In this document: positions 9,265 through 37,840 of the stretch, one piece after another | Numbering within the stretch: the stretch's first letter is position 1 | Layout: the number at the start of each line of letters is the position of its first letter | Origin: a virus | Length of the DNA stretch: 45,352 nucleotides | Reading direction: 5' to 3' (one strand) | IMG/VR virus record: IMGVR_UViG_3300043410_000355 | Coordinates: 1 to 45,352 of that record | Program-made: the position numbers and the translations under genes | Notes under the pieces: generated by a model | Told to the model about the DNA's origin: nothing | What the model saw: the letters and a program-made list of their open reading frames with translations, nothing else | Database searches by the model: none

Positions 9265-9272
9265 TATTTATA
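9265..9272 (-). promoter_or_regulatory. T4-type late promoter
   Basis: Perfect TATAAATA on the minus strand, 30 bases upstream of the ATG at 9234. This is the consensus box recognised by RNA polymerase carrying the phage sigma gp55, with gp33 and the sliding clamp as activators. A gp33 homologue lies at 44594-44809. It drives the fibre/neck operon leftward. Confidence 0.85.
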
Positions 9273-9299: not shown

Positions 9300-9307
9300 T
9301 ATAAATA
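9300..9307 (+). promoter_or_regulatory. T4-type late promoter, divergent
   Basis: Perfect TATAAATA on the plus strand, with the ATG of the 226-aa gene at 9346 downstream. It is 27 bases from the opposite-facing box, forming a compact divergent late promoter pair. It shows that the plus-strand gene is meant to be made late, with the structural proteins. Confidence 0.85.
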
Positions 9308-9345: not shown

Positions 9346-10026
9346 ATGGAAAACATCCAACCACCACAGAATGGCACAGTAACTGTGGCAGAACAAGCAG
9401 AAAACCTACCTTCGCCACTAATTGGAGACGCGAAGCCAGAAGAATATAACTTTGACTACTCTCCAGTCGAAGAAACGTTTAATCGTCACCTATTCCCAAC
9501 ACTATTTGCGAGCTATAAGTTCACTGACTGGGAAAAGATCGCGCAACCATTGATCGACCTATCTAACGGTTGGGATGGTCCAAATGCGGGTGGCGATATT
9601 ATGGAACTAGACCATCCAGCAGTTAACCGTCTAAAAGAAATCATCTACGAAATCTGTGAAAACGTCCAGCTTTCTAAGGATGATAACGGTCGTACTCCAG
9701 TTATTGTTGGCTCCAACGTTATTTTCCAACAGAAGGGTGAACACATCCCTCTACATAACTACGAGTTTTCTACTCTAGTTTTCACTTTCGTTGCTAACGT
9801 TGGTCAAACTCCACCGATGACTTACTTCGCAGACCCACGCGGTGGTGTCCAAGCGATCCGTAAGATGGCTGCACAGAACCTAGTTGGTACTAGCTTCGGT
9901 ATCAGCAGCCGTGTTGGTGAAATCTATGTTTCTCCAGGCTACGCTCAACGTTATGTTGAGACTAACCTAGAATCAGAAACCCATGTGCTCGTTAACGTTC
10001 GTGTAAACTTTTTGATGATCACTTAA
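9346..10026 (+). CDS. 2OG-Fe(II)-oxygenase-like protein with degenerate metal site
   Basis: 226 aa. The region 120-226 follows the double-stranded beta-helix pattern of phage 2OG-Fe(II) oxygenases (2OG-FeII_Oxy_5 type): a strand ending KGEHIPLHNYEFSTLVFTF, then MTYFADPRGG with the usual 'DPR', then VGEIYVSPGYAQRYVETN and a final strand LVNVRVNF. In active members the first motif is HxH or HxD and the second contains another His (FPsyl-H-V). Here the first His is kept (LHNY), but the second ligand appears to be Tyr, and the distal His is Gln/Arg (GYAQRY). It may thus be catalytically dead, or use different ligands. It is the only plus-strand gene between two minus-strand blocks, has its own late promoter, and its 3' end overlaps the PP-loop gene tail to tail. 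Confidence 0.6.
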   Translation: MENIQPPQNGTVTVAEQAENLPSPLIGDAKPEEYNFDYSPVEETFNRHLFPTLFASYKFTDWEKIAQPLIDLSNGWDGPNAGGDIMELDHPAVNRLKEIIYEICENVQLSKDDNGRTPVIVGSNVIFQQKGEHIPLHNYEFSTLVFTFVANVGQTPPMTYFADPRGGVQAIRKMAAQNLVGTSFGISSRVGEIYVSPGYAQRYVETNLESETHVLVNVRVNFLMIT

Positions 10027-11076
10027 AATATGCTTGTTAACGTAGTGGACTGAATAGTCCTCTAGTAAAAATAACCAAGACGCAAGGGGGTTTCCTAAAG
10101 AGGAGACCCCCTTTGGTTTATTCCAAGCGTAATAACTATCTCCACTATACTCTTCGATCAACTCTCTCATAACCCAACGGTGAGTTAGAGGTTTACCGAC
10201 ATCTTTCGTGAATGGCTCTTTAGTTGTGATAACATAGCGCTGAAAGTCGTCAGTGTTATAGAAGTGATATTGGTTATCTTGCTGGTTCGTCGCGATTCGA
10301 CTAGAATACTCTGCTGTATACCAATCATAGTTGAAGATCAACCACCAACGGAGATCTCGGAGAGTCTCAATCTTTTTAGGGCTAGCTTTAATAGATGGAA
10401 GCAAGAACTCGTGTAGTTCATCATCGATACACTTAGTGTAGTCGATCAACGGATCATCGTTATTGAATTGGTGATGGAAGAAGGATACAGAGGTTTTAAT
10501 CTTACCAGTGATAAAGTCGTCCACTGGACCAAATAGTTGGTTACCGTAGTATCCAGTGACGAAGATGCTGTTTGGATCTCCATCGTCGAAGTCTCTTGTA
10601 GAAGAAACTTTGAAATTATACTTAACGCCAGAATTCTTAATCTTGGTGTCGAATAGATTACCAGATTCTAGAATAGAACTGTATGTTCCATATACAGTAA
10701 TCTGACTCGGGTCATTGACGTGTTTTAGTAGTGCAAAGAGTGCGAGTGTGCTATCGATACCACCACTCCAAACTACGCTGATCGGTTTATCTAAAGCAAC
10801 CAATTCTTTACAACGATCATCAACACACTCCCTGAAAGACTTATTAAACCCAGCATCAATCTTTGGGATCTGCAATAGTCCAGGTTTGATATTCAGGAAG
10901 TGGGGAGTTTGTCCTGTTCTGTCATAGACAGCGTTCAGGTTCATCTTATGTTTCTCAAAGAAGTTATACAACTCCTTATGGTTTGGAGCCAAATATTCTT
11001 CGATTGGTTCTATCTTGTTATTGATTAGGTCTAAAGAACGGATCAAACCAATGTTGTAGTATAGCAGTTGCTTCAT
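9973..11076 (-). CDS. PP-loop ATPase, asparagine-synthase-like (possible amide ligase)
   Basis: 367 aa. Residues 101-117 carry the PP-loop VVWSGGIDSTLALFALL, which binds ATP pyrophosphate in adenine-nucleotide alpha-hydrolases (asparagine synthetase, GMP synthetase, QueC, TilS). A second segment at 172-183 (FVTGYYGNQLFG) matches the 'TGEGADELFGG' region of asparagine synthetase B, with the acidic residues replaced. There is no N-terminal Cys glutaminase; the first about 100 residues are a short unrelated domain. The family activates a carboxylate with ATP for amide formation; lasso-peptide cyclases and beta-lactam synthetases are relatives. The substrate here is unknown. The gene follows a terminator hairpin, has GAGGA before its ATG, and its last 54 bases overlap the 3' end of the plus-strand gene. 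Confidence 0.7.
   Translation of the reverse strand: MKQLLYYNIGLIRSLDLINNKIEPIEEYLAPNHKELYNFFEKHKMNLNAVYDRTGQTPHFLNIKPGLLQIPKIDAGFNKSFRECVDDRCKELVALDKPISVVWSGGIDSTLALFALLKHVNDPSQITVYGTYSSILESGNLFDTKIKNSGVKYNFKVSSTRDFDDGDPNSIFVTGYYGNQLFGPVDDFITGKIKTSVSFFHHQFNNDDPLIDYTKCIDDELHEFLLPSIKASPKKIETLRDLRWWLIFNYDWYTAEYSSRIATNQQDNQYHFYNTDDFQRYVITTKEPFTKDVGKPLTHRWVMRELIEEYSGDSYYAWNKPKGVSSLGNPLASWLFLLEDYSVHYVNKHILSDHQKVYTNVNEHMGF
10084..10113 (+). terminator. Strong hairpin downstream of the 226-aa gene, inside the PP-loop ORF
   Basis: Arms 10084-10096 and 10101-10113 pair over 13 positions (GGGGGTTTCCT against AGGAGACCCCC plus two A-T pairs, one G-T) around loop AAAG. The plus strand then reads TTTGGTTTATT. 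It is a likely terminator for the late plus-strand transcript that starts at 9300. It lies within the coding part of the minus-strand PP-loop gene (around KPKGVSSLGNP), so one sequence serves both. Confidence 0.6.
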
Positions 11077-11092
11077 AATATCCTCAAAATGA

Positions 11093-11116
11093 AAAAGGGA
11101 GCCGTAGCTCCCTTTT
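11093..11116 (-). terminator. Rho-independent terminator after the TRAP-like gene
   Basis: Ten-bp stem AAAAGGGAGC/GCTCCCTTTT with loop CGTA (11103-11106 on the plus strand). On the minus strand the hairpin runs into TTTTT, giving a textbook intrinsic terminator 18 bases after the stop at 11134. It separates the solute-binding gene from the PP-loop gene. Confidence 0.75.
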
Positions 11117-11123
11117 ATTTATC
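11116..11123 (-). promoter_or_regulatory. Candidate late promoter (GATAAATA)
   Basis: The minus strand reads GATAAATA, one change from TATAAATA, 40 bases upstream of the PP-loop gene ATG. It directly abuts the terminator stem, so transcription would start within or just past the hairpin. A terminator-plus-promoter arrangement is plausible but unproven. Confidence 0.4.
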
Positions 11124-11133
11124 ACTCAACTAA

Positions 11134-12081
11134 TTAGTGTAGTTGAATCTTCTGGACTAGACCAGGAGTGAAGTAGTCTGCAAACTTTTCGTAAACAGAA
11201 GCAGTAACTTCTTTGAACTTCTTCTGTTCTGTGTCGCTCATACGAACAACTTCAACACCCTTCTCTGCACATTCTGCTAGAATGTTTGGAATGTCAGCAA
11301 CAGATTCGCGACGCTCTGCGCGAGCAGCATTGAACGCTGCAGTAGCCATGATCTCACGAGTTTCTTCGTCGAACTGAGCCATGAAGTCTTTATTGACGAT
11401 GATAGAAGTCAAGAACAAGCTGTGAGCAGTATCGTTAACAACCTTGAAAGACTTGTACTGGTCAAGAGGGAAGATACGAACGTAAGTAGATTCGCCAGCA
11501 GAGATAACACCCTTGTCTGCGTACTCGTTCATTTCTTCTAGAGCGATGTGCTCTTTTGGCTCTGCGCCTAGTAGTTTGAATGTTTCAACAGCGACTGGAG
11601 AGCGAGATGTACGAACAGTCTGCCCCTTCCAAGAATCGACAGTGTCAGCACGGAAGTTCGCTGGAACAACACGGTAACCACCAGAGTAAGTGAAAGACAT
11701 AGCAGTGATATTGCTATTCTTAGAAACACCTGCTAGTAGTTCAGTACCAACTTCACCTTCCAAAACTGCGTCAGCGTGAGCGTGGTCGCGGAATAGGAAA
11801 GGTAGGTCTAGAGCGTGTAGATCTTTATTGTAGTCTGCAAGCCAAGTAGTGTAGATGTGGCTCATTTCGATCGCGCCAGTGTCGATCAATTGCATCAAGT
11901 CATTCTTGCTGACTTTCTTGCCAGCGTTATACTTGTTAGTGTAATCAGTCAAAGAAAGAACTTCGATGTCAAACTTGCCACCAGTTTTTTCGTTAACTTC
12001 TTTAGCGAAACGCTCGGCGACTTTTAGAAATAGACCGATTGGTTCGTGGGCGATGACCCATTTTACGTGTTTCTTTTCCAT
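11134..12081 (-). CDS. TRAP-transporter-type solute-binding protein (DctP family) without signal peptide
   Basis: 315 aa. Resembles DctP/TRAP periplasmic binding proteins along its length: KVAERFAKEVNEKTGGKFDI near the N-terminus, then SYSGGYRV-like 'TYSGGYRVVPANFRADTV', WKGQTVRTSRSPVAVETFKL with LGAEP (this segment holds the Arg that grips a carboxylate ligand in the family), and GVISAGESTYVRIFPL. Cellular members carry a signal peptide or lipobox and feed DctQ/DctM permeases. Here the protein starts MEKKHVKWVIAHEPIGLFLK with no hydrophobic leader, and no permease genes are nearby. It should stay in the cytoplasm or be packed with the virion. GGAG precedes the ATG; the 108-aa gene ends 12 bases upstream. 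It may be a free ligand-binding or scaffold protein. Confidence 0.8.
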   Translation of the reverse strand: MEKKHVKWVIAHEPIGLFLKVAERFAKEVNEKTGGKFDIEVLSLTDYTNKYNAGKKVSKNDLMQLIDTGAIEMSHIYTTWLADYNKDLHALDLPFLFRDHAHADAVLEGEVGTELLAGVSKNSNITAMSFTYSGGYRVVPANFRADTVDSWKGQTVRTSRSPVAVETFKLLGAEPKEHIALEEMNEYADKGVISAGESTYVRIFPLDQYKSFKVVNDTAHSLFLTSIIVNKDFMAQFDEETREIMATAAFNAARAERRESVADIPNILAECAEKGVEVVRMSDTEQKKFKEVTASVYEKFADYFTPGLVQKIQLH

Positions 12082-12093
12082 TTAGGATTCTCC

Positions 12094-12420
12094 TTATTTT
12101 CTTAAATACTTAAGATGTTCTGCACACTTAAGATCTAAACTCCACACCTCACCAGACTCTGTTACGTCTACTACAATAATCGGAAGTTTTAACCTTATGA
12201 TCCGTTCTTTATATTTATAAACAAACTCTTTTTGCTCCTGTGTTGCATTGAGCAAAAAATCTGGTATTTGGATGCTGACATTATTACTTTGGAACCCATT
12301 TTCCAGTGAGTTGTGCCAGAAAACATCAGCTAATGTTCTCTTATTTAGCTTCGAGTCGATTGAACCGTATCTAGGATAACGGTTCACATCCCAAATGTAA
12401 CAGTTTAGGAAAGGTTCCAT
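12094..12420 (-). CDS. Unknown 108-aa protein translationally coupled to the radical SAM gene
   Basis: 108 aa, starting MEPFLNCYIWDVNRYPRYGS. No family recognised. Its ATG overlaps the radical SAM stop as TAATG, so the two are almost certainly translated together and it is a candidate partner of the enzyme. The stretch WDVNRYPRYGSID...TLADVFWHNSLEN loosely recalls the non-cysteine parts of a SPASM domain (a residue pattern G-I-...-L-x-D-V-F/W-x-x-S), but it has only two cysteines, so it could not hold an iron-sulfur cluster by itself. The C-terminal half (LPIIVVDVTESGEVWSLDLK) looks like a beta-alpha-beta fold. A peptide-recognition role is possible but unsupported. Confidence 0.6.
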   Translation of the reverse strand: MEPFLNCYIWDVNRYPRYGSIDSKLNKRTLADVFWHNSLENGFQSNNVSIQIPDFLLNATQEQKEFVYKYKERIIRLKLPIIVVDVTESGEVWSLDLKCAEHLKYLRK

Positions 12421-13883
12421 TATCGAGGCTCTACTGGAACCTGTACGATAGGAATGTTAATTGGCTTGCGCACTTTCCAAGACTTAACGCCAGTCTTCAT
12501 ATACTCGATATCGATAACTGGGATGGAGGTAACACCGTCGAAACGGATACGTTCACCTTTGATCTCAGTCAATACTAGACCGTCTGTCATCTTAAACAGA
12601 GAAGCGCTAAGCATAGCTAGGTTATACCAGAAAAGGTTCTCACACGCCTGTTCCCAATACTGATCCTCTAGGAACAAACACGCACCCTGACACAACTGAA
12701 CGACTGGACAAGAAGGGCATTCCTTACGAGTAGACCAGTGGTAAGAGTTAGTTAAACGGATGTTGTCGAAATCCTCGATATTACCGATGTTATGTTTAGT
12801 TAGGGAAGACGTGTTCTGACAAGTGGTAACGTTACCCTTCATATCGATGGCAATGTTGTCTTCTCGATCCATACCACACTTCTGACCGACTGCTTCAGCA
12901 GGGCGTCCATAGACGATAGATTCAAAGAAAGACTTAACTTTCTGGTGAACCGTCCAGCTAAACTGATTCTTATTATCGATTGTTTCTTCGAACAATGAAT
13001 GAAGAATTTCCTTCTTCTCATCAGTTGTTTGAAGAGAGTGATTCATACCAGAGTCGTCATATGGAAGCATTAACTCTTCTGTAGTGACTTGAAGTTCGCG
13101 CTGGTCAACACCTGGATTCTCGAATCCCTGATGTGCCTTGTTTAGCTTCTTCTGGATGAAATCTCTAACTGCAGGGATTGAAACGTTCTCACGAGTCAAA
13201 ACGCAGTTGAATGTGAAGCGCATACTACCCATAGTCTTAAGGGCGTATACGATAGCATCTTTTGCAGTTGGTTCATCTAATGGGTCTGGACCACGATTTT
13301 GCGCATGGAGTGGACCATCGTGAGACATACCGATAGAAAAACCCATACGGTTGAACCAATCAACCTTATCCCTAGTCAATAGAGATCCGTTGGTAACCAT
13401 CATAAACTGAGCGTTAGGGTAAACCTTCTTAACCTTCTCAGCTAGTGGCTTTAGAGTTTTCCAGTAAACGAGTGGCTCTCCACCCCAGAACTCTAAACGG
13501 AATCGGTCATATGAATCGAACGCGAAGTTCTCTTTCATCTTGCGTACCAATTCCTCAGCGTCATCTGGACCGCCGACTGGATCGTGTGGTTGGTGGGCTT
13601 GATTGCAGTAAGAACACGCGTAGTTACACTTAAGACCCATCGTGATCTTAAGTGTAACAGGTTTCTTTGATTTCTTGCCGTGTAAGGCTGGGTCGTGTGG
13701 GTTGGTAATGTTTGCAGGTTCCCACACCTTAGCGTTCATTTGATATTGGAGACCCTTACTGATAAGATCAAGCGAGGGTCTCTCGTGGTTATGTTCCCAA
13801 TACATCTCAGATGTCATTGGGTCATAAACCATATTCAACGTCACATCATTAGCCCCTTGCAGGACTAGTGTAAATTTACTCAT
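12420..13883 (-). CDS. Radical SAM/SPASM protein (anSME-like maturase)
   Basis: 487 aa from the ATG at 13883, which has AAGGAT upstream; a TTG two codons earlier is less likely. The radical SAM motif is C86-NYA-C90-SY-C93 (CX3CX2C), which binds the [4Fe-4S] cluster that cleaves S-adenosylmethionine. WGGEP (133-137) and TNGS (164-167) are further core motifs. The C-terminal part is a complete SPASM domain: C336-X13-G-X4-C355, then C389-X2-C392-X5-C398-X3-C402 and C414, enough for two auxiliary clusters. This layout is that of peptide/protein maturases (sulfatase maturase anSME, sactipeptide and ranthipeptide enzymes, PqqE). Such enzymes modify Cys, Ser or neighbouring residues of a polypeptide. 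The likeliest substrate here is the Cys-rich protein two genes upstream (inference). Confidence 0.9.
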   Translation of the reverse strand: MSKFTLVLQGANDVTLNMVYDPMTSEMYWEHNHERPSLDLISKGLQYQMNAKVWEPANITNPHDPALHGKKSKKPVTLKITMGLKCNYACSYCNQAHQPHDPVGGPDDAEELVRKMKENFAFDSYDRFRLEFWGGEPLVYWKTLKPLAEKVKKVYPNAQFMMVTNGSLLTRDKVDWFNRMGFSIGMSHDGPLHAQNRGPDPLDEPTAKDAIVYALKTMGSMRFTFNCVLTRENVSIPAVRDFIQKKLNKAHQGFENPGVDQRELQVTTEELMLPYDDSGMNHSLQTTDEKKEILHSLFEETIDNKNQFSWTVHQKVKSFFESIVYGRPAEAVGQKCGMDREDNIAIDMKGNVTTCQNTSSLTKHNIGNIEDFDNIRLTNSYHWSTRKECPSCPVVQLCQGACLFLEDQYWEQACENLFWYNLAMLSASLFKMTDGLVLTEIKGERIRFDGVTSIPVIDIEYMKTGVKSWKVRKPINIPIVQVPVEPR

Positions 13884-13914
13884 TAACAATCCTTATAATA
13901 TAGAACAGATAATG

Positions 13915-13921
13915 TATTTAG
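13915..13921 (-). promoter_or_regulatory. Candidate late promoter (CTAAATA)
   Basis: The minus strand reads CTAAATA, 31 bases before the radical SAM ATG and overlapping the end of the 382-aa gene. The distance matches the perfect TATAAATA boxes at 9265 and 37381, so late expression of the radical SAM gene with the structural genes is plausible. Confidence 0.45.
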
Positions 13922-13922
13922 G

Positions 13923-15071
13923 TTACTCGATCTCGACCCATAGTTCAGCCCAAGAAGTGAACTCACCAAGATTCAATTTCAACTTGAAGTATTCACCAGA
14001 AATTAGACCGATAGTATTGACAATGACGCCTTCCACGCCACCAAAACCTTGAGCCATCTTATCAGCTGGGTGGTTGTGGTTTGCGATGAACTCTTGAACA
14101 TATACGTTAGGGTTCTGTGGATCATATTCGTTTGTTAGTCTAGTCTTAGAAGCGACACCGTTGACGCACTCTACATCGAATGTAACGAATGGTCTGCTAT
14201 TGATGATGTTGTGGATTCTAGAACCGAACATAACACGAAGAATGTGTTGGTCAGAAGCTGGTAGTTTAACATAAAAACGGTTACCGCTCATCTGAGTAGA
14301 TTGAGCGACTTGTAGTTCTGGGTTAATACCAGCAGTATTGACTGGTTGCTTCTGAGTTAGCTGTCTGAAGTTTTCTGCCTTAGCAGTTGGCTTAACTGTT
14401 GGATATGCAGAAGATACGATCTTACCATTAGCATCTAGGACTTCGAACGTCACCATAACTCTAACGTAAGTATTACACCAGAATTCATATTCTTTTGGTG
14501 TAACTGCAGTGACCTGTTGATTACCGACTTCTAGAACAGTGTCCATCAAGTCGAATTGATAGTCTTCAACAAAAAACTGAAGAGTAGATCCTTCGAACCC
14601 GAGAGACTTAAAGAAACTATCAATGACAAATAGTGGAGACAACGGAGTATTTGCGTTATAACGATACTCGTTCAAGTTATAGTAGATCTTTTCGTGAGAG
14701 TTGCTACCATCAACATATTGTTTAGAGACTTCATATACGTCGATAGGATCGCTGATGGTCTTGGTATCATCATTGTACTCGATAATCCACTTGTAGTTAT
14801 CAGTCTTTTGAACGAAGTCTGCTTCTGTGAATTCACGAGTAGCAACAACCTTTAGATCACCAGTTGTGTGTGGATCTCTTAGGATAGTATCTGTGCCTTC
14901 TGGAAGAGATTCATCTAGATCTGGGTTTGGTGGAATGACTTCTTCTACTTTAACGCTGATAGTTTTAGTATCAGCGTTAAAACCCATAGTTACACGGTGA
15001 CCTGTATCGTGCCCGTAGGTATCTTCAGTACCTTCGTTACCTTTAATTACAGTCTTAAATAATTTTAACAT
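13923..15071 (-). CDS. Unknown 382-aa virion-like protein in the modification cassette
   Basis: 382 aa; begins MLKLFKTVIKGNEGTEDTYG. I recognise no family. The composition is soluble and beta-rich with many short strands (RVTMGFNADTKTISVKVEEV, MSGNRFYVKLPASDQHILRV), no membrane segment or signal peptide, and a C-terminus GEYFKLKLNLGEFTSWAELW that resembles lectin- or jelly-roll-type virion decoration proteins. It contains two cysteines only. It stands between the Cys-rich gene (17 bases upstream) and the radical SAM gene (39 bases downstream), with GAGGATCC before its ATG. It could be a structural carrier of the Cys-rich protein or an independent decoration protein. Confidence 0.65.
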   Translation of the reverse strand: MLKLFKTVIKGNEGTEDTYGHDTGHRVTMGFNADTKTISVKVEEVIPPNPDLDESLPEGTDTILRDPHTTGDLKVVATREFTEADFVQKTDNYKWIIEYNDDTKTISDPIDVYEVSKQYVDGSNSHEKIYYNLNEYRYNANTPLSPLFVIDSFFKSLGFEGSTLQFFVEDYQFDLMDTVLEVGNQQVTAVTPKEYEFWCNTYVRVMVTFEVLDANGKIVSSAYPTVKPTAKAENFRQLTQKQPVNTAGINPELQVAQSTQMSGNRFYVKLPASDQHILRVMFGSRIHNIINSRPFVTFDVECVNGVASKTRLTNEYDPQNPNVYVQEFIANHNHPADKMAQGFGGVEGVIVNTIGLISGEYFKLKLNLGEFTSWAELWVEIE

Positions 15072-15088
15072 TTATAGGATCCTCAGGA

Positions 15089-15475
15089 TTAGCAGTTACA
15101 GTTACATGCGCAGTTACAGTTACATGCGCAGTTACAGTTACAGTTAGTTCTATACCATTGGAAACCACCCATTGTGTTATCTTGGTTATCGTGACGGATA
15201 CCGTCTGTAGAACCAGAAACTGCAGCACCGATAGAAGTGTTACGGAAGATGTTAATACGTCTATCAGTAGTTGCACCCCAACCTAAGTCGGCAGCATCAC
15301 AGTTACCGCAGGCACAGTTACAGTTACCGTTACATGCGTTACATGCGCAGTTCCATCCGCAGTTAGCGTTTGGTTCGGTATAGCCTCTGTTACCTGCATC
15401 GTAGTAGTTCCAGAATAAGTTTACAACGTCTGTACCGTCAGAACGTCTAAAACCTGTTGCACCGTAATATGCCAT
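15089..15475 (-). CDS. Cysteine-repeat protein, candidate substrate of the radical SAM enzyme
   Basis: 128 aa with 17 cysteines in two clusters. Residues 1-37 (MAYYGATGFRRSDGTDVVNL then FWNYYDAGNRGYTEPNA) form a cysteine-free head. Cluster 1 (39-59) reads NCGWNCACNACNGNCNCACG with a final NC. Residues 60-110 are again cysteine-free, and cluster 2 (111-128) is the C-terminus NCNCNCACNCNCACNCNC. Every cysteine is preceded by Asn or Ala. There is no signal peptide. It lies between an S74 fibre gene (2 bases upstream) and the 382-aa gene, with GGAGA before its ATG, so it is expressed with virion proteins. Possible roles: substrate for thioether or other radical SAM chemistry, a metal-binding tip, or a disulfide-locked beta stack. 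Confidence 0.8.
   Translation of the reverse strand: MAYYGATGFRRSDGTDVVNLFWNYYDAGNRGYTEPNANCGWNCACNACNGNCNCACGNCDAADLGWGATTDRRINIFRNTSIGAAVSGSTDGIRHDNQDNTMGGFQWYRTNCNCNCACNCNCACNCNC
15092..15145 (-). repeat. 18-bp tandem repeat encoding the Asn/Ala-Cys tail
   Basis: On the minus strand, after one leading AACTGT, the unit AACTGTAACTGCGCATGT is repeated 2.67 times without a mismatch up to the stop codon. It encodes the NC/AC tail of the Cys-rich protein. Perfect identity at the DNA level suggests recent expansion by slippage. Confidence 0.9.
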
Positions 15476-15477
15476 GT

Positions 15478-16656
15478 TTAATTCTCCAGTTTAATTAGTC
15501 GAGCGTTTAGCTCTTCAATAGTCTTTTGTTGTTCCTTAATCGCTTCAACTAACAAACCGACCATGTTAGAGTAAGAAACGGTCTTATAACCAGTCTCAGT
15601 AGTTCCAACGACCTGCGGTAGAACAAGTTCAACTTCCTGAGCGATTAAACCGATTTCATCGTGTCCATCTCTGGTATATGAAACGCCTCTTAGACCATTA
15701 ACGACGCCCACAGCATTATTTAGTGTTTGGACGTTTGCCTTTAATCTTGCATCAGAAGACTGAGTGAATGTATCAGCAACAACAGCTTTGAATGTGTTTG
15801 TTGTACCAGTCCAAGTGTTATTACCACTTAGAGATGGGACATCAGATCCTAGATCGATAGTTGGATTACCAGCAACTGCATCACCGTTAGTGATAACAAC
15901 GCGAGTTGATGTTCCAACTAGAGAACGAATAACCGCAGTACCATCACCAGTTCTAGTGTATAAACCCTTATCGGTCGTTCCAGTAAGACCAGAGATAGCA
16001 GTTAGGTTAGCGTTATATGCTTGTACGTCTGTACCGATCGCTAGACCGAGTGTAGTTCTTGCGTTAGAAGCAGCTGCAGAAGCAGCCAAACCGCGCATAT
16101 AAGAACTAACAGTATAAGTAGCAGCAGTGCCGTCACCAGTAAAATATGGTGCTGCATCTGCGGCAGATGTCACAGTAGCTAGAGCAGCTAGTTCCTTATC
16201 ATAAGCCTGTACGTCTGTACCAATAACTAGACCTAGAGTCGAGCGAGCACCAGCAGCAGTAGTTGCGCCAGTACCACCAGAACCGATGGCTAGGGAAGTA
16301 GTTAGTGTGATAGAACCGCTAGTGATAGCGGCAACACCAGAGAACGTACCAGAAAATGTAGCTGCAGTAATATTGTTAGCTGCAAAGTTACCAGAACCGT
16401 CACGGCGAACGATAGTGTTAATCGTGTTTGCAGTGTCTTGATTGTAACCGTCTAACAGGTCAGCATCTAATCCAGAGCCAGAACCATCGACAGTGATAAG
16501 TTTAGCTAGAACGTCGGCTGCAGTGTAAGAAGCTGCAGTCAAACCAGTTTGGAGTGCAGTACTGATATTACTAAAGTTAGCATCAACTTCGGCATTCGTT
16601 AAAGGGCTACCTTTGGTAGCTCTTAACGTGATTGAAGGTGCTGAAATGTTTGCCAT
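15478..16656 (-). CDS. Tail fibre with C-terminal S74 self-cleaving chaperone
   Basis: 392 aa. The N-terminus (MANISAPSITLRATKGSPLT followed by NAEVDANFSNIS) is a widespread fibre-attachment motif. The shaft is weakly repetitive (two copies of ARSTLGLVIGTDVQAYDKEL-like units at about 135 and 198). The last about 95 residues form an S74 chaperone (SSDARLKANVQTL...HDEIGLIAQEVELVLPQVVG...VSYSNMVGLLVEAIKEQ), paralogous to that of the 1237-aa fibre. In the family this domain trimerises the fibre, then cleaves itself off at Ser-Asp. AAAGGATCC precedes the ATG. It sits between the DUF4815 tail protein and the Cys-rich gene, and it may be the fibre that carries the Cys-rich protein (inference from adjacency). 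Confidence 0.85.
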   Translation of the reverse strand: MANISAPSITLRATKGSPLTNAEVDANFSNISTALQTGLTAASYTAADVLAKLITVDGSGSGLDADLLDGYNQDTANTINTIVRRDGSGNFAANNITAATFSGTFSGVAAITSGSITLTTSLAIGSGGTGATTAAGARSTLGLVIGTDVQAYDKELAALATVTSAADAAPYFTGDGTAATYTVSSYMRGLAASAAASNARTTLGLAIGTDVQAYNANLTAISGLTGTTDKGLYTRTGDGTAVIRSLVGTSTRVVITNGDAVAGNPTIDLGSDVPSLSGNNTWTGTTNTFKAVVADTFTQSSDARLKANVQTLNNAVGVVNGLRGVSYTRDGHDEIGLIAQEVELVLPQVVGTTETGYKTVSYSNMVGLLVEAIKEQQKTIEELNARLIKLEN

Positions 16657-23190: not shown

Positions 23191-23198
23191 TATTTATT
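23191..23198 (-). promoter_or_regulatory. Candidate late promoter (AATAAATA)
   Basis: The minus strand reads AATAAATA, one change from the T4 late box, 26 bases before the ATG of the 2089-aa gene. It overlaps the last bases of gene 8. Spacing equals that of the perfect boxes in this window. Confidence 0.5.
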
Positions 23199-37380: not shown

Positions 37381-37388
37381 TATTTATA
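37381..37388 (-). promoter_or_regulatory. T4-type late promoter
   Basis: Perfect TATAAATA on the minus strand, 22 bases upstream of the gp48 ATG at 37358. It should drive the gp48-gp53-gp27-gp5-PAAR operon leftward. Confidence 0.85.
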
Positions 37389-37405
37389 CTTCCAATTACT
37401 TATTT

Positions 37406-37840
37406 ATGTTCCACAAAAGAAAGTTTGTTCCAGTTTTCCCTGAAAAGTACACAGGAGACCCGTCTAATATCATTATGCGGTCTTCGTGGGAGACTCAATT
37501 CGCAAACTGGTGCGATAAGAATCCTTCCATCGTAAAGTGGAGTTCAGAGGAAACTGTTATCCCGTATCGCTGTCCAACGGATGATCGAATTCACCGTTAC
37601 TTCGTCGACTTCAAAATAATGACGGCGAATGGTAAAACCTATCTGGTCGAGGTGAAACCACATAAGCAAACAGAACCTCCCGTCTTCCCTGGAAAGCGAA
37701 CTAAACGCTACCTCACAGAATCCTATACGTACATCAAAAATCAGGCAAAGTGGGCTGCTGCTCGAGAATATTGTAAGGATCGTCGCTGGGAATTCAAGAT
37801 CGTCACTGAGTATGAACTTGGACTCAAGCAGCCTAAATAA
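37406..37840 (+). CDS. 4: Head completion protein gp4 (TnsA-like nuclease fold)
   Basis: 144 aa from the ATG at 37406 (MFHKRKFVPVFPEKYTGDPS). T4 gp4 is 150 aa, and its start is similar. Core motifs: IIMRSSWETQFANWCDKNPS, VKWSSEETVIPYRCP, HRYFVDFKIMTANGKTYLVE then VKPHKQTEPP. The E...(V)DF...(V)E(V)KP pattern is that of a TnsA/PD-(D/E)XK nuclease-like fold. Gp4 acts after DNA packaging to finish the head before tail joining. An upstream ATG at 37373 would overlap the promoter region and lacks homology. The first gene of the plus-strand block. Confidence 0.88.
   Translation: MFHKRKFVPVFPEKYTGDPSNIIMRSSWETQFANWCDKNPSIVKWSSEETVIPYRCPTDDRIHRYFVDFKIMTANGKTYLVEVKPHKQTEPPVFPGKRTKRYLTESYTYIKNQAKWAAAREYCKDRRWEFKIVTEYELGLKQPK

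Follow-up and report, generated by a model that had tools for sequence, protein, structure and literature searches.

A predicted stand-alone ligase of the asparagine synthetase class that accompanies carboxylate-binding proteins across phages

The window, meaning the whole 45,352-nucleotide stretch analysed, is a 45-kb IMG/VR virus record from a marine virus of bacteria, which in our judgement looks like a T4-like myovirus from its fibre, baseplate-like and neck-like neighbours. The gene of interest, designated ASN, is preceded on its own strand by genes for, in order, an S74 fibre protein, a Cys/Asn-rich protein, u382, a radical SAM enzyme, u108 and DctP. On its other side, a 2OG-Fe(II)-oxygenase-like gene is convergent with ASN, with a tail-to-tail overlap of 54 nt. 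The features of the locus are as follows.

9346-10026, (+) strand: 2OG-Fe(II)-oxygenase-like protein (phrog_81), conserved in the window clade
9973-11076, (-) strand: ASN, predicted stand-alone PP-loop ligase of the asparagine synthetase class, 367 residues, from motifs, homologue alignment and predicted fold
11093-11122, (-) strand: late-promoter-like GATAAATA box overlapping an intrinsic-terminator-like hairpin, between DctP and ASN, from consensus matches only
11134-12081, (-) strand: DctP-like TRAP solute-binding protein, 315 residues (Pfam PF03480, E = 2.5e-43)
12094-12420, (-) strand: u108, small alpha/beta protein by predicted fold, the most frequent direct partner of ASN
12420-13889, (-) strand: radical SAM/SPASM enzyme with CNYACSYC (CX3CX2C), from family models and homologues; probable start at ATG 13883, by comparison with homologues
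13923-15071, (-) strand: u382, conserved but without an assigned function, lying between the genes of the Cys/Asn-rich protein and the radical SAM enzyme, from locus comparison
15089-15475, (-) strand: Cys/Asn-rich protein, 128 residues, with an internal NCGWNCACNACNGNCNCACGNC cluster at about 15299-15364
15478-16656, (-) strand: tail-fibre-like protein with a Peptidase_S74 chaperone domain, from a domain match

The hairpin between DctP and ASN occupies 11093-11116, and the 7-mer ATAAATA of the GATAAATA box lies at 11116-11122. A similar box, hairpin or both occurs in most loci related to the window; given this common arrangement, ASN may be transcribed late as a separate unit. Boxes with ATAAATA, 20-50 nt ahead of gene starts, were seen at 9265-9271 (-), 9301-9307 (+), 11116-11122 (-), 23191-23197 (-) and 37381-37407 (-). 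They resemble T4-type late promoters, with a total in the window that is not above chance and a placement that is suggestive only.

The reading frame of ASN is intact and under strong purifying selection (dN/dS of about 0.03 against close relatives), and the same gene order, with ASN at 66-91% identity, was found in seven IMG/VR phage loci. A profile scan confirmed at least 421 relatives, and 80 viral loci were kept, including relatives down to 26-30% identity. The two motifs on which the earlier note had based its assignment lie at residues 104-110 (the P-loop SGGIDST, within WSGGIDST at 103-110) and 174-183 (TGYYGNQLFG). The protein starts with MKQLLYYN and has about 95 residues ahead of the P-loop; the N-terminal catalytic Cys of an Ntn-type glutaminase, reported missing in that note, is indeed absent from ASN, which matched no GATase model. 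Across 48 diverse homologues SGGIDST is invariant or nearly so, as are, without exception, D52, R53, S134, E137, G175 and K320, the last forming a Lys pair with K322 (44 of 48). Where AsnB has GEGSDE, the family reads G-x-x-(G/S)-(N/D)-(Q/N/H) and the window protein GYYGNQ. The second acidic position, an aspartate in AsnB, is Asn in 35 and Asp in 13 of the 48, which bears out the earlier statement that the acidic residues of this motif are changed. No Cys is invariant or even 90% conserved in the same set. ASN belongs to a large phage protein family without a described function; a literature search found no article that treats AsnB-like ligases of phages together with radical SAM or TRAP genes, although absence of this kind is not proof.

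For the enzyme class of ASN, an AlphaFold2 model built from the 48 homologues (mean pLDDT 89.5, pTM 0.89) was compared with known structures. Structural alignment (VIA-align) placed the hydroxyamidotransferase TsnB9, beta-lactam synthetase, human ASNS, E. coli AsnB and carbapenam synthetase at Z 12.2-14.0 over 183-257 residues, with GMP synthetase, LarE, NAD synthetase and TilS lower at Z 9-11, and the best Foldseek matches were ASNS and the carbapenam and beta-lactam synthetases. Against predicted viral structures, phage proteins matched at E 1e-12 to 1e-17 (4e-17 to 2.5e-12 within the family of ASN itself), three of the close matches being named asparagine synthase. By sequence, similarity to AsnB and PDB chains was limited to the P-loop, a Pfam search of ASN gave no match up to E 0.1, and distant members match PF00733 only below its cut-off. 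Because these links reached the P-loop alone, the predicted fold is the basis for placing ASN in its class.

With the C-terminal synthetase domain of AsnB/ASNS, the ASN model has in common the SGGxDS PP-loop, a fold shared over some 195-200 residues (Z of about 12-13) and a lysine motif near the domain end. The alignment with 1ct9 ends at model residue 321 and chain residue 448, and K320-P-K322 maps, approximately, near the RQK of AsnB (Lys 450 counting Met, 449 in the mature protein). AsnB differs in having an N-terminal Cys glutaminase and GEGSDE, whereas ASN has no glutaminase, carries GYYGNQ and has Asn in place of the second metal-binding acid. TIGR01536 scored 15.6 bits against a cut-off of 267; as it lacks the glutaminase and the GEGSDE motif and falls short of the family score, ASN is not an asparagine synthetase. 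The best structural matches (Z 12-14), beta-lactam synthetase, carbapenam synthetase and TsnB9, are AsnB relatives repurposed for amide or hydroxamate bonds. Beta-lactam and carbapenam synthetases retain a glutaminase-like N-terminal domain; ASN has only its roughly 95 residues there. On its predicted structure, then, ASN is a member of the AsnB/beta-lactam-synthetase structural class that stands alone without a glutaminase, as had been proposed from the letters of the sequence.

The gene found most often directly beside ASN is u108, present in 45 of 79 non-redundant ASN clusters; here and below, locus frequencies come from loci fetched by patterns and are no census, many of the records being fragmentary. 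The structure of u108 was predicted with confidence (pLDDT 91.8), and a PDB fold search with it returned no match better than E 2. Loci that lack radical SAM have u108 too, one of them (L058) with four tandem copies of ASN. Where u108 is missing, a protein of 210-285 residues and of unknown family recurs upstream of ASN in 16 loci (among them L191, L193, L194, L195 and L219-L227) and is a possible functional replacement. Pairwise distances in the window clade (11 loci) were strongly correlated for ASN and u108 (r = 0.93), ASN and radical SAM (0.76) and u108 and radical SAM (0.79; Mantel p 0.0005 each), against 0.13 for ASN and the baseplate gene and 0.02 for ASN and DctP. The three proteins therefore travel together, in keeping with the earlier suggestion that ASN belongs with the radical SAM gene, and a specific, long-standing protein contact between ASN and DctP is not indicated. 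In the sister clade (16 loci) the corresponding correlations were weaker (0.49, 0.54 and 0.26).

The radical SAM gene and the Cys/Asn-rich protein, both of which the earlier note had pointed out nearby, proved to be real. The CX3CX2C and SPASM cysteines are invariant in 13 radical SAM homologues, and the SPASM model scores above its cut-off. The nearest named maturase models (PapB, DynA and Cys-rich peptide maturases) all fall far below their cut-offs, the best NCBIfam match being PapB at 78.1 bits against an equivalog cut-off of 340. PapB forms Cys-to-Asp/Glu thioethers (PMC9413430). The PapB-type ranthipeptide maturases and the phage enzyme have the radical SAM/SPASM architecture and a Cys-rich substrate in common, but PapB acts on a leader peptide, whereas the phage enzyme would instead act on the (Asn-Cys)n end of a tail protein. 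The Cys/Asn-rich protein, with its C-terminal NCNCNCACNCNCACNCNC at 15092-15145, is the probable substrate, and a Cys-Asn analogue of the PapB thioether might be formed in the window phage.

Among the fetched viral loci, 136 ORFs contain four or more X-Cys repeats. Of these, 127 lie in loci with the radical SAM family and share its strand without exception; 121 end no more than 3.5 kb upstream of it. Often a tail-fibre-like protein has the repeat at its very C-terminal end, whether or not ASN is in the locus, and in the sister clade the tail-fibre-like S74 protein itself ends in an (NC)n tail. Tail-fibre-like proteins with an (Asn-Cys)n end lie upstream of radical SAM in nearly all phages examined; in the isolate JWF, an Achromobacter phage, gp028 (fibre) bears the repeat and gp030 is the radical SAM gene. 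Pairs of phrog_1802-like radical SAM and (Asn/Ala/Asp-Cys)n fibre proteins were observed in the window (12420-15475, (-) strand) and at L009 5679-9200, with more in L273, L275, L276, L283, L291, L304, L313, L318, L327 and L337. Radical SAM and repeat proteins together look like a phage-wide, thioether-type tail modification system.

The earlier note had proposed that ASN forms an amide or lactam on the Cys/Asn-rich protein. In its wider form, this reading has ASN activate a side-chain carboxylate, located on the Cys/Asn-rich protein, on u382 or on the S74 fibre, and form an amide, isopeptide or lactam bond in the manner of lasso cyclases, working with the radical SAM enzyme. The gene neighbourhood is identical in all window-clade loci, ASN, u108 and radical SAM are inherited together independently of the baseplate gene, and ASN relatives stand by tail genes in two further settings. 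In Pseudomonas phage Cygsa01 (an isolate, L008) they lie beside tail genes, with no radical SAM in the stretch read, and in Xanthomonas (L135, with a near relative in L141) one occupies the place of a tail-fibre gene downstream of Baseplate_J and GP46, which points to a prophage or tailocin. Against these points, about half of the radical SAM/(NC)n clusters lack ASN. The proposal of an Asn-rich substrate concerns the (NC)n tail of the ORF at 15089-15475, which tracks radical SAM and not ASN, and amide or lactam formation on the Cys/Asn-rich protein is not supported as the leading reading. Conversely, records of 173 and 98 kb carry ASN and DctP with no match to the radical SAM family of the window, a 250-kb record carries both with a family match of only 15 bits, and the ASN genes of L058 and L059 sit among replication genes. 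Together, the whole-record searches and the radical SAM/(NC)n loci without ASN weaken the view that ASN acts mainly with radical SAM.

A precedent for a peptide substrate would be the lasso peptide cyclase (McjC type), an AsnB-class ligase able to act on a ribosomal peptide. Of the comparisons proposed earlier, the match to the AsnB class stood and the lasso cyclase did not: its model NF033535 was touched by one of the 48 ASN members, at E 0.054, which is no meaningful similarity. No precursor-peptidase pair of lasso type was seen adjoining ASN, and u108 has the predicted strand/helix order bbb-a-bb-a, which may differ from that of the RiPP recognition element of lasso systems, with no PDB match. 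Modification of a tail-module protein as the function of ASN is, on balance, unlikely, if still to be reckoned with.

What recurs beside ASN in loci of otherwise different make-up is a carboxylate-binding protein or transporter, a link absent from the earlier note. In the window this is DctP, in which R157, the conserved ligand Arg of the family, is invariant and a KxRTxxSPVA-type motif aligns with KIRTLQSPV of 4p47. Inspection of N-termini by eye revealed no Sec signal peptide in the window protein (start KHVKWVIAHEP) or its close relatives. DctP lies between u108 and ASN, yet has a phylogenetic history separate from both, with a median identity in 27 loci of 77% as against 50% for ASN. The 65 DctP proteins of the fetched ASN loci include a signal-peptide-less phage form that is strikingly conserved and decoupled from its neighbours. 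Where loci were fetched with phage DctP, ASN was found within about 9 kb in 62 of 76 (in 24 of the 34 that lack radical SAM) and, after removal of redundancy, in 36 of 44.

Radical SAM loci fetched regardless of ASN served as an internal control. DctP or TctC was present in 11 of 12 such loci with ASN and in 1 of 64 without (Fisher p 2.5e-11); after clustering at 70%, the counts for a solute-binding protein were 10 of 11 and 0 of 28. In ten whole records whose radical SAM locus lacks ASN, phage DctP was likewise not found, and whole records chosen with ASN do contain it. Other ASN loci have TctC, an NMT1-like protein, DctQ plus DctM, or TctA as companion instead, all non-homologous replacements, and a sodium:solute symporter (SSF) lies near ASN in four MAG contigs with bacterial-type relatives. 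Across phages, the ASN family tracks solute-binding proteins or transporters of carboxylates. No solute-binding protein was found in the stretch read of the tandem loci L058 and L059 or of isolate Cygsa01. TctC was rejected as a general partner of ASN, as 29 of 36 exported-TctC phage loci lacked ASN in the control scan.

Several further arrangements were observed. Three to five tandem, diverged ASN copies occur at L069 6422-14106, L083 1732-9114 and L058 719-5394, followed in L069 and L083 by DctQ and DctM; L083 also has two DctP, one exported and one not. In L051 a class-I glutaminase that has Cys-His-Glu is found close to ASN, and a compact set of u108, ASN, class-I glutaminase and exported TctC is found at L051 8661-12301, in L054 and in L056, with an extra 2OG oxygenase in L051 and TctA in L054. 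The small membrane protein DUF2061 recurs beside ASN/DctP loci (L023, L026, L027, L033, L065, L191 and L200), in L026, L027 and L033 together with genes that by eye are IscU- and HesB-like Fe-S genes. Cupin-domain proteins adjoin ASN relatives on phage and bacterial contigs (L067 9809, L086 630, L112 6817). Bacterial relatives, mostly at 23-32% identity, are in some cases found beside cupins, symporters or phage baseplate genes, and no u108, radical SAM or DctP was seen next to them.

A reading in which ASN and the solute-binding protein gather independently as cargo in the same variable phage islands, with no common pathway, would fit the separate history of DctP and the occurrence of phage TctC mostly without ASN. 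We regard this as improbable: DctP tracks ASN strongly within otherwise comparable tail loci, unrelated transporter families recur beside ASN, and DctP of the phage type hardly occurs among 50,697 isolate phage records.

Weakest is the proposal that ASN is a nucleic-acid-modifying PP-loop enzyme of the deazaguanine, tRNA thiolation or lysidine type, which we hold to be very improbable: the best PHROG match of ASN is named QueC-like and some members touch LarE and TilS models, but all these matches are confined to the P-loop (residues 97-128 in the PHROG case), as are those to PDB QueC. QueC requires a zinc Cys cluster and the thiolases a catalytic Cys. With no conserved Cys among the 48 homologues, ASN has neither the cluster of QueC nor the catalytic Cys of tRNA thiolation enzymes (MnmA, TtuA, ThiI), and these readings fail for that reason. 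The ATP-binding P-loop is the sole likeness; the AsnB class is ahead in structural match, and viral QueC models reached only E 0.4-0.7 against the values given above for the phage family of ASN. QueC is missing from the listed VIA-align matches, which by itself excludes nothing. Close kinship to QueC or to sulfur-transfer enzymes of tRNA, for which the earlier note had allowed, was thus not found.

The reading we favour, at a probability of roughly 0.45, is that ASN is an ATP-dependent, amide-forming ligase of the asparagine/beta-lactam synthetase class that uses a small carboxylate. ATP would be bound at SGGIDST and, by analogy with the class, the carboxylate would be adenylated with release of pyrophosphate, after which attack by an amine would give the amide. 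The carboxylate may be one of the small organic acids that TRAP/TTT solute-binding proteins bind, and the unexported DctP could hold it in the cytosol; u108 may be a partner of ASN or a subunit binding the acceptor. For relatives with a separate class-I glutaminase, found near ASN in one clade, this neighbour suggests ammonia as the amine. For the window clade, the amine might also be one carried by a protein of the tail-fibre module, given that ASN and u108 share their inheritance with radical SAM, which would probably crosslink the (Asn-Cys)n tail. A fuller and so far undescribed scheme, in which cytosolic DctP supplies a scavenged acid that ASN and u108 attach as an amide to the crosslinked tail protein, would amount to a two-enzyme virion modification; this we consider a rather long shot. 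Points against the favoured reading of ASN as a carboxylate-using ligase are the uncorrelated distances of ASN and DctP in the window clade, the Asn in place of the second metal-binding acid, the ASN loci read without a solute-binding protein, the usual occurrence of exported phage TctC without ASN, and the terminator-like hairpin that separates DctP and ASN in the window.

Genes of phages that are usually termed metabolic speed up host metabolism. If the favoured reading of ASN is true, a family of phage amide ligases is coupled to the capture of carboxylates, and its genes would be neither usual metabolic genes of this kind nor DNA-modification genes. In the window clade, ASN would join radical SAM in altering tail proteins, and post-translational chemistry now annotated as asparagine synthase could underlie receptor binding or the stability of the tail. 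The pairing of radical SAM with (Asn-Cys)n proteins may be more remarkable than ASN itself. The favoured reading of ASN also opens to experiment the odd fact that a TRAP binding protein lacking a signal peptide is encoded by so many environmental phages.
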